Positions 5,086 through 60,950 of a stretch of 64,000 nt of DNA are shown piece by piece. The stretch's first letter is position 1. Each line of letters starts with the position of its first letter. Below the pieces are notes generated by a model. It searched no databases. It was given only the letters and a program-made list of their open reading frames with translations, and had not been told where the DNA came from. The translations under genes were made by a program, and so were the position numbers. The stretch is from Planctomycetaceae bacterium (GTDB taxonomy: Bacteria; Planctomycetota; Planctomycetia; Pirellulales; Pirellulaceae): positions 1 through 64,000 of the forward strand of contig RECD01000144.1 of assembly GCA_007694185.1 (NCBI GenBank), in the 5' to 3' direction.

Positions 5086-6108
5086 ATGTTTTCGCTCGAT
5101 GAAATTTATCAAGCCCATTCGCTGGTGCAGTCGGTACTGCCACCGACGCCTCAATACGTTTGGCCGCTGCTGAGTCAGCGGTTGGGGATTGAGGTGATCG
5201 TCAAGCATGAAAATCATCTGCCGACCGGCGCCTTCAAGGTCCGAGGGGGATTGGTCTATCTCGACCGCTTGATCCGTCGCAAACCGGCCGTCCGCGGGGT
5301 GATCAGCGCGACCCGTGGGAATCACGGGCAGAGCATCGCGTATGCGGCGCGACGGGTCGGTTTACCGGCAACGATCGTCGTCCCGGTCGGCAATTCGCCC
5401 GACAAGAATGCGGCGATGCGGGCACTCGGGGCGGAGTTGATCGAGGTCGGCAACGATTTCGACGAGGCACGTGCGGAGCTGGGCCGATTGGCTGAGCAGC
5501 GGGGGTACGAGCCCATCCCTTCGTTCCATCGTGACCTGGTGATCGGGGTGGCGACCTACGCATTGGAACTGTTCACCGCGCAACCCGACCTCGACACCGT
5601 CTACGTCCCGATCGGACTCGGCTCGGGCATCTGCGGGCTGATCCGAACCCGTGATCTGCTGGGGTTGAAGACCACCATCGTCGGTGTCGTGTCGGAGCGG
5701 GCGGCCGCCTACGCGCGGTCGTTCGAGGCGGGGCGGGCGGTCACGACGCCGACCGCCTGGACCTTTGCCGACGGGATCGCGACGCGACAACCGGACGGCG
5801 ACGCGTTGGAGGTTATCCTGGCCGGGGCGGCTCGGGTGGTGGAGGTCTCCGAACGGGAGATCGCGGCCGCGATCCGGATCTTTTACGACGACATCCACAA
5901 CCTGGCCGAGGGGGCCGGTGCGGCGGCCCTGGCGGGAATGATCCAGGACCTTCCGCAGCATCCCGAGCGGCGGTGCGGCGTGATCCTGTGTGGCGGAAAT
6001 CTGGATCGCCACCGGGCGGTCGAGATCCTCGCAGGGGGTGTTCCCGAGGTTCGACCGGGCGAATCGGTCGACGGCGAGTCAGGGCGTCAGATGCTTGAAA
6101 TGCGATAA
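5086..6108 (+). CDS. Threonine/serine dehydratase-like PLP enzyme
   Basis: A fold-type II pyridoxal-phosphate enzyme of 340 residues, in the length range of threonine/serine dehydratases without a regulatory ACT domain. The PLP-lysine motif is visible near residue 48 (HENHLPTGAFKVRGG), followed by the asparagine-containing loop TRGNHGQS. A glycine-rich phosphate-binding loop (PIGLGSGICG) occurs around residue 180, and a late CGGNLD resembles the cofactor N1 site region. The expected reaction is deamination of threonine or serine to the 2-oxo acid, but racemase or other ammonia-lyase activities in this family cannot be excluded. It lies 41 bp after the DUF1501 gene on the same strand. Its 3' end overlaps the convergent enolase-superfamily gene by 22 bp. 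Confidence 0.88.
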   Translation: MFSLDEIYQAHSLVQSVLPPTPQYVWPLLSQRLGIEVIVKHENHLPTGAFKVRGGLVYLDRLIRRKPAVRGVISATRGNHGQSIAYAARRVGLPATIVVPVGNSPDKNAAMRALGAELIEVGNDFDEARAELGRLAEQRGYEPIPSFHRDLVIGVATYALELFTAQPDLDTVYVPIGLGSGICGLIRTRDLLGLKTTIVGVVSERAAAYARSFEAGRAVTTPTAWTFADGIATRQPDGDALEVILAGAARVVEVSEREIAAAIRIFYDDIHNLAEGAGAAALAGMIQDLPQHPERRCGVILCGGNLDRHRAVEILAGGVPEVRPGESVDGESGRQMLEMR

Positions 6109-59422: not shown

Positions 59423-59504
59423 CGGTAAAAAGTGTCCGGAACCTTTTGTGCAAAGTACCCGAAGGGCGAGTTCCTCGCAAAAGGTTCCGGATGCTTTTTT
59501 ACCG
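59423..59504. repeat. 82-bp hairpin element with 28-bp imperfect terminal inverted repeats
   Basis: The left end reads CGGTAAAAAGTGTCCGGAAC and continues to TTTTGTGC. The right end, reverse-complemented, reads CGGTAAAAAAGCATCCGGAA and continues CTTTTGCGAGG. Arms of about 28 bases match with few differences, and the loop contains GAAGGGCGAG. No coding capacity. It sits exactly where the PQQ gene loses its 5' part. The structure resembles a small non-autonomous element or a repetitive palindrome; no target duplication is obvious. Confidence 0.65.
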
Positions 59505-59829
59505 CTCATTGCTTAGCGAAATCGCTCACCAACCGGACGCTAACTCGCTCCGGTTGATGTCAGTCGGTCCTGGAAACGGATGTTCGTATTTTTGCATCGT
59601 CAAGCTGGCCTTGTGGGATGCCGGCGCCGCGCCACTGGGGATCGCATCGTGGTGAGTTTGACCATGCTGAGCGCTGTTTGTTGCAAAATGGCTGGACATG
59701 GACCATTTGGCAAACCGGCGGTTGGGCGTGAAAACTCGAGCCGAACGGCTAGAATCAGCCTTGCCGTTTTCGAACACGCATCCCCGAATGATGGGAGGCG
59801 ATCGGCGGTTATCATCCTGGAGGAGACGC
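59505..59829. other. Decayed spacer with one palindrome
   Basis: No supportable gene lies in these 325 bases. A perfect 8-base palindrome (CAACCGGA at 59530-59537 with TCCGGTTG at 59549-59556) is the one clear structure. Short open frames on both strands have no ribosome sites or family resemblance. The spacer separates two pseudogenes and is probably degraded sequence. Confidence 0.4.
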
Positions 59830-60217
59830 ATGGCATTCGAGCGATTTGGGGAACAGGTTCGATCGGCGGAGGAACTTGCCACAATCATCGGTACGCCGTC
59901 GGTCGTGTCGCTGAAGAAGGAGTTGACGGCACTCGATGGGCATATGCGGCGATTCATCGCCCATTCGCCCTTCCTGGTGATCGGTACCCATTCCGCCGAT
60001 GGCCGTTGCGACGTGTCACCACGCGGCGACGCAGCGGGGTTCGTCTAGGTCGTTGATGCGCAGGCGTTGTTGATTCCCGATCGCGCCGGCAATAAGCACT
60101 TCAACCGAAGTCATTCCGCATAACTTGAGCACATCAATCGACACCGGCGCTGACCATTCGCTCAGAATTACCCAAAACAATTCTATGCAGCCGATCACCC
60201 GCCAGTTGCGTAAACCT

Positions 60218-60316
60218 GGAGCCGAGCATGACCGCCTGATTTCTTAGCCCGGAGCCGAGCATGACCGCCTGATTTCTTAGCCCGGAGCCGAGCATGACCG
60301 ACTGATTTCTTAGCCC
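60218..60316. repeat. 33-bp tandem repeat, three copies
   Basis: Copies lie at 60218-60250, 60251-60283 and 60284-60316, with a period of exactly 33 and a single difference (A for C) in the third. The unit begins GGAGCCGAGCATGACCGCCT. There is no spacer variation, so it is a simple tandem array and not a CRISPR. It is part of the insertion in the PPOX gene. Confidence 0.85.
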
Positions 60317-60335
60317 GGAGGGCGACACATACTTG

Positions 60336-60355
60336 CCGGTGGCGTAAGCCACCGG
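60336..60355. repeat. CCGGTGGC palindrome with GTAA loop
   Basis: A perfect 8-base stem, CCGGTGGC and GCCACCGG, encloses the tetranucleotide GTAA. It follows the tandem repeat and is bracketed by two copies of the 15-base CCCGGAGGGCGACAC (60314-60328 and 60380-60394). Such a module looks like a widespread palindromic intergenic repeat. Confidence 0.65.
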
Positions 60356-60437
60356 AACCAGAAAAATATAATTACAAAGCCCGGAGGGCGACACGTCTTC
60401 GTAGCAGCGCCAATGAAGCTTGGAATTCACGTAATTT

Positions 60438-60540
60438 AAGCACTTCGACAGGCCTCATCTTGCACAACATGAACGCGCAGACCGATAACGCCGTTGGCCG
60501 CCTTTGCGGATTATGCCGAAACATTCCTGTTGAGGTGCTT
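60438..60540. repeat. 103-bp unit with 15-bp terminal inverted repeats
   Basis: AAGCACTTCGACAGG at 60438-60452 pairs with CCTGTTGAGGTGCTT at 60526-60540; 13 of 15 positions match. The left arm is also a direct relative of the insertion's own left end at 60094 (AAGCACTTC shared), and a diverged third copy (TTGAGCACATCAATCGAC) lies near 60130. This suggests that related small elements were inserted one within or beside another. Confidence 0.6.
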
Positions 60541-60950
60541 AGGCGGGTCGATAGTTTTCGGAATATTCTGGAGACCGGCAGCGTCGGTCTGTTGTTCCTG
60601 ATTCCGGGGTTTGGCGAGACTTTGCGCGTCAATGGCCGTGCCGCGATCATTCGTGACGAAGCTTGGCTTGCGCCGTTGGCGGCACACGGGAAATGGCCGT
60701 TGGGCGCGCTCGCCGTCGAGGTCGAAGAGTGCTACCTGCAATGTGCCAAGGCGCTGTTGAGTTCAAAATTGTGGAAGCTGGGCGATTGGCCGAATTTTAA
60801 GAAGCTGCCCTCAGCGGCCGAAATGTTTACCGATCAGGTTCGAATGCCAGAATTTGACGTGTCCAAAATGCAAGAATCACTCGATTCCGCTTACAAGGAT
60901 AGATTGTTTTAGTTTTTTCGTATCACGCATGACCCACAACGCAGGCTCAC

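Follow-up and report, generated by a model that had tools for sequence, protein, structure and literature searches.

The window, that is the whole stretch of 64,000 nucleotides that was analysed, is located on contig C110 of a draft genome of 5.78 Mb, which comprises 288 contigs and is rated 99% complete. Within it a gene for a PPOX-type flavoprotein is interrupted by a discrete insertion of 447 bp. The features of the locus are listed in Table 1. Both halves of the gene match TIGR04025, the MSMEG_1061-family of FMN-dependent PPOX flavoproteins. At the junction the left frame closes with GGC AAT (G N), and AGG CGG GTC GAT (R R V D) opens the right one; on comparison of the proteins, the homologue in genome G020 is continuous across the site, reading GNRRVDSLRN. 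The insertion may be counted as 447 bp lying between T and A, or as 445 bp (AGCAC…GTGCT) together with one copy of the duplicated TA. The gene has a second lesion, an in-frame TAG at 60046–60048, and is thus a pseudogene irrespective of the insertion. Given the extra stop, its decay may already have been under way.

Table 1. Features of the interrupted gene and of the inserted element, in window coordinates
Feature	Position	Strand	Basis
Interrupted PPOX gene, 5′ part (MSMEG_1061-family)	59830..60093	+	ATG at 59830; TIGR04025 E 1.3e-17, profile 1-59
Presumed TA target duplication, left copy	60093..60094	.	Sequence; T flank in 16/23 elements
Composite element, whole	60094..60540	+	Homologous protein precisely interrupted at GN^RRVDS; outer ends are the window's top two matrix matches
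Left arm, 103-bp unit without inner ~10 bases (model positions 11-103)	60094..60186	-	Arm model R1, 42.2 bits, E 2.8e-10
Tandem array, 3.1 x 33 bp, 98% matches	60218..60320	+	TRF score 199
First box, GCCCGGAGGGCGACA	60313..60327	+	Sequence
Palindrome CCGGTGGCGTAAGCCACCGG, core of cargo module	60336..60355	+	Sequence; arm-free copies of the module in other genera
Second box, GCCCGGAGGGCGACA, 66 bp past first box	60379..60393	+	Sequence
Right arm, complete 103-bp unit, of the kind also found solo	60438..60540	-	Arm model, 100.6 bits, E 1.7e-28
Presumed TA target duplication, right copy	60540..60541	.	Sequence; A flank in 15/23 elements
Interrupted PPOX gene, 3′ part	60541..60912	+	TIGR04025 E 3.3e-38, profile 76-197; 50% identity to uninterrupted G020 homologue

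The element is short and carries no transposase of its own. A weight matrix for the element ends, built partly from this very element, scores above 5 at only three places in the 64-kb window: at AAGCACTTCAAC (60094), at AAGCACTTCGAC (60438) and at the end at 60540, which is an inverted copy. These are the end boxes of the preliminary description, and the 33-bp tandem array, the palindrome and the two GCCCGGAGGGCGACA copies that it placed between them are likewise all present. The exception is the diverged box that it saw near 60130; by its position (judged by eye) this belongs to the interior of the left arm and is not another copy of the end. The cargo between the arms is laid out as a GCCCGGAGGGCGACA box, the CCGGTGGCGTAAGCCACCGG palindrome and a second box, preceded by the 33-bp unit. 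An open frame of 98 aa runs over the array on the minus strand. A coding function for it was considered and rejected; the frame through the array varies among copies of the element, being different or stopped in others.

The terminal inverted repeats have the consensus TAAGCACTTCAACAGGTTTCTTTCCGCATAACT, derived from 42 ends of 21 elements. These elements were picked by the analyst and also supplied the end matrix; L007 and L059, whose right ends are doubtful, were left out. The flanking bases were counted in 23 elements with both ends placed. From 36 candidate end pairs 22 were kept, several after manual correction of their coordinates, and L007 was added; the other 14 were dropped because an end abutted the cargo, was an inner end or was uncertain. 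L007 and L059 were retained in this count despite their doubtful right ends. T precedes 16 of the 23 elements and A follows 15, with binomial tails at p = 0.25 of 9e-6 and 5e-5 respectively. Both bases are present in 10 elements; the full T…A pattern is missing in 13, and in two of them (L057 and L007) both bases are missing. To judge from the flanking bases this bias fits insertion at TA targets with subsequent decay, the duplication of TA being presumed.

The element belongs to a dispersed family, as had been supposed in the preliminary description. A query of 456 bp containing the element has at least 63 genomic matches with E ≤ 1, a lower bound since 40 of 112 first-look candidates were scored. 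The second-best match has 80% identity over query positions 5–448 (E = 2.6e-109). Given this number of matches, and the quality of the second best, the element is not a chance assembly of repeats. A model of the 103-bp arm, built from 30 copies of the right arm, gives at least 98 matches at E ≤ 0.01 (150 of 3944 candidates scored, so again a lower bound), or 96 once overlaps are removed. The end motif AAGCACTTCAACAGG occurs at 48 sites in the genome when up to one mismatch is allowed, against one site for the reversed control. In 15 of the 30 element loci that were fetched, no more than 250 bp separate the match from the end of a contig, by a count of coordinates (L002, L006, L009, L012, L013, L014, L017, L019, L021, L022, L023, L026, L027, L028 and L030). 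The elements therefore probably break the assembly, so that copies are undercounted, and the family probably accounts for part of the fragmentation.

The 103-bp unit is found both alone and as the arms of longer elements. A solo unit is located at positions 5525–5627 of contig C48 (L070), inside the gene of an NtrC-like sigma-54 regulator. When it is omitted there is one unbroken frame of 620 codons, and a 319-aa stretch of the reconstructed protein aligns to NtrC-family structures (PDB 4l4u, E = 2.6e-72); the alignment is ungapped across the junction. There are thus two insertions shown inside genes, and both empty sites (PPOX and NtrC-like) were reconstructed from protein homology. Homologous proteins run through both sites and so reveal the ends of the elements, in the way that the preliminary description had foreseen for uninterrupted sites.

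The long elements comprise two 103-bp arms in direct repeat, placed around a palindromic module. There are 12 pairs of arms in the same orientation and no more than 650 bp apart. This count excludes C210, where one unit is split by a short duplication, and includes C269, where the arms have the same orientation though a weak reverse match had been sorted first. Ten of the 12 pairs contain cargo of the window type (by eye), while the pair on C84 has other cargo and that on C86 is a short form. This arrangement of arm, cargo and arm bears on whether the composite has ever moved as a unit. Two independent 103-bp MITEs might have inserted on either side of a pre-existing cluster of palindromes; a unit did insert alone in C48, and palindromes are common in this genome. 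But the same order of arm, cargo and arm recurs at ten places with flanks that differ by eye, and the 447 bp in the window are a single clean insertion in coding sequence. We consider such separate insertion very improbable. The arm–array–arm composite agrees with the preliminary description, according to which the locus exceeds an ordinary MITE in structure and may be made of nested palindromic elements.

The tandem expansions vary among copies, but their periods are all multiples of 33 (33, 66 or 99 bp). On C78 a 66-bp repeat is present at least five times, the array running into the contig end, and on C274 a 99-bp repeat is present three times. No such tandem was seen in several other copies. 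An element of 130 bp on C106 (L087) is identical in 48 of 49 and 79 of 82 bases to stretches at the two ends of the window element, and by this alignment looks like an internal deletion of a window-like element. A second class of element, 234–235 bp in length (L052, L066, L067 and L072), carries another palindrome, AGCGGCACGGCGCAAGCCGTCCGG, as its cargo, and one of its ends, AAGCATGCCGACAGG, is divergent. A further dispersed palindromic repeat, GGTAAAAAGTGTCCGGAACCTTTTGTGCAAAG…CTTTTTTACC, lies at 59424–59520 of the window, and matches several fetched loci with 78–98% identity over 34–95 bp. Some elements of the family adjoin or sit within this repeat, for example L008 and L066.

The arms and the module differ in their distribution among other genomes. 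The arm model was run against 116 other genomes with stricter filters and at most 34 candidates scored in each, so that the counts are lower bounds; it matched only the congener G002, with two weak matches. In G002 the 103-bp unit survives as a weak relic (L119). Among 59 other genomes of the family the AAGCACTTCAACAGG end pattern is not enriched (43 sites against ~80 for the reversed control, summed by eye), and two degenerate end patterns had no matches in a scan of the contig collection, which possibly excludes the genome itself. The cargo part alone was matched in nine of the 59 genomes, and a single weak match to the arm end was found in G029 (E = 8.7e-4). At the loci read in G010 and G019 the palindromic module is clustered without arms. 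As far as these sequence searches extend, the arms are practically confined to the one genome. Since other genomes hold cargo matches and arm-free clusters, the palindromic module is, by the same searches, more widespread than the arms, and it is probably older. Of the family of planctomycete elements suggested in the preliminary description, the part that stands is thus the inner palindromic module, which is common to other genera; the arms do not share this spread.

A module that is clustered without arms in other genera resembles a REP cluster, and the array could be regarded as a REP/BIME cluster moved by a RAYT (Y1 tyrosine transposase), the AAGCAC boxes being incidental. Yet Y1_Tnp (PF01797) has no match in this draft genome, while five of 14 control genomes were positive. 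Neither GTAG nor CGTC directly adjoins the hairpin at 60336–60355 (this hairpin being examined by eye), and the insertion is bordered by the AAGCAC ends and not by the palindrome. The chance of this explanation is smaller still than that of separate insertion. It is equally improbable that the family, in place of a selfish transposon, is a regulatory or structural-RNA element under selection that recombination has spread: the right arm folds better than its shuffles (z = −2.64, 3 of 200 as good) with its ends paired, and the whole element has z = −1.63, but the pairing is accounted for by the inverted ends, only two of 12 predicted pairs in the arm alignment have a double change, and the element disrupts genes. 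The signal of RNA structure in the arm is weak, and the arm model was for this reason built from sequence only.

A candidate for the source of the transposase was found in the congener. IS630-family elements were scanned for in 41 genomes of the family, this one included, and 29 loci were read besides L048 of the genome itself, being part of the matches listed. An element of ~1.2 kb in G002 (L124/L172) has the ends TAAGCACCTAAACTGCACTCATTGGGCATAAC and TAAGCACCTGAACAACACTCATGCCGTATAAT, with TA at both flanks. These ends share with those of the MITE the same register of 32 nt, TAAGCACYT.AAC...TCAT...GYATAA. They score 31.1 and 22.6 on the end matrix, and the next best site in the locus is more than 30 bits lower, at −9.8. 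Among 354,668 background positions none reaches 31.1 and one reaches 22.6; the latter is in L156, a locus fetched for its end-like motif. In all, the highest background scores (28.2 to 8.7) came from five end-like loci that had been retrieved by means of the end pattern. The G002 transposase has DDE_3 and helix-turn-helix domains and matches NF033545 (IS630) with E = 3.8e-60; its open frame has 361 aa, or 343 aa from the chosen ATG. In the other 29 IS630 loci (L048 and the rest of L121–L149) the top matrix score is 11.1, in L048 and outside its IS. This match of the ends with an IS630-family insertion sequence is an addition to the preliminary interpretation.

The congener G004 has three related transposase fragments, 57%, 42% and 37% identical to the G002 protein. 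At roughly the places where arithmetic from the match positions would put their ends there are end-like sites, with scores of 14.8, 13.9 and 17.6. These values are overlapped by the range of the five highest background loci, and the third site does not have TAAGCAC at its start. In G002 itself a broken relative (C142, L186; 74%) has no end-like site, nor has a relative in G020 (L174; 40%), the maximum score being 4.3.

In the genome of the window there is no relative of the G002 transposase at E ≤ 1e-10, and a DNA search with the whole G002 element found nothing better than E = 0.5. Two possible partners within the genome were rejected. L048 (C61) is a full-length IS630-like element with TA flanks, but its ends, GTGCCAAAACCCTTAA, are unrelated, and the match on C145 is a frame of 78 aa. 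The L048 element, which belongs to another subgroup, occupies positions 758–2222 of its locus, and its weak end-like site lies just beyond, at 2242–2274. As the transposase of the matching subgroup was not found in the assembly, the family is probably orphan or dormant in this genome, and its current activity is doubtful.

We conclude, with a probability of about 85%, that the element is a non-autonomous element (MITE) moved by cut and paste into TA by the transposase of an end-matched IS630-family insertion sequence. This is based upon the repeated family, the precise insertion, the inverted ends and their match to the IS630 element of the congener, the composite structure and the deletion derivative. 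From these we infer mobilization by this IS630 subgroup, with duplication of TA. The transposase would act in trans on the ends of the element. In the composite, two mobile 103-bp units in direct repeat would lie around a palindromic module, which in other genera exists on its own, and use of the outermost ends would move the whole, carrying the module as cargo. The array between the repeated CCCGGAG boxes could grow or shrink by 33 bp at a time, slippage or unequal recombination being the presumed cause. Shorter elements may then arise again by internal deletion, of which the 130-bp derivative would be an example. On transcription, hairpins are predicted to form from the arms and the palindromes.

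The family is new. It is not described in the titles or abstract openings listed for MITEs, palindromes or repeats of Planctomycetes, which is not proof of absence from print; the works considered, in part as extracts, include PMC3733652, PMC3049150, PMC10969869 and PMC2229807.

A broader and more tentative proposal, which we put forward as a possibility, is that these composites are a gene-free counterpart of the composite transposon. A pair of MITEs in direct repeat would capture palindromic modules (at least two cargoes, in classes I and II), spread them and allow their expansion in increments of 33 bp; REP-like palindromes would thereby be amplified on IS630 ends without a RAYT of their own. 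The data suggest a possible route by which such palindromes could spread in genomes lacking RAYTs, as cargo between copies of a MITE using IS630-type ends. The congener retains a full-length IS630 element with ends of the matching type, and the insertions provide material for the study of repeat expansion in Planctomycetes.

The Correia/NEMIS and ERIC elements are MITEs of ~100 bp with IS630-type ends and TA duplications. The G002 IS630 element shares with the window element the 32-nt register of the ends and the TA at both flanks, but encodes a transposase where the window element has no such gene. RUP of Streptococcus pneumoniae, as described in extracts of PMC3049150, is an element of 107 bp with ends like those of IS630-Spn1. 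By that description the present family is similar to it, as a MITE of ~100 bp with ends matching an IS630-family IS; it differs in forming composites with cargo where RUP is simple, and its partner transposase was not found in the same genome. The BOX elements of S. pneumoniae have the form boxA–boxB(n)–boxC with lengths of 67–637 bp, and a resident IS is believed to act on their inverted ends, BOX being linked to ISSpn2 (PMC3049150, extracts). The likeness to BOX is architectural only: both are modular and variable in length, with end modules around a variable tandem array. Unlike BOX, the arms here are direct-repeat copies of one 103-bp unit that also occurs alone, the array belongs to a palindromic module common to other genera, and the ends point to IS630 rather than ISSpn2. 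REP/BIME sequences are palindromic repeats tagged with GTAG/CGTC, reported also in Planctomycetes in the extracts of PMC3733652. They too are short palindromes in clusters, but here no RAYT was found in the genome, no GTAG adjoins the hairpin described above, and the palindromes ride inside a MITE. In its working the family thus resembles RUP, an IS630-type MITE, and it is modular in the manner of BOX; what sets it apart is that its direct-repeat arms also occur alone, and that they carry a palindromic cargo common to other genera.
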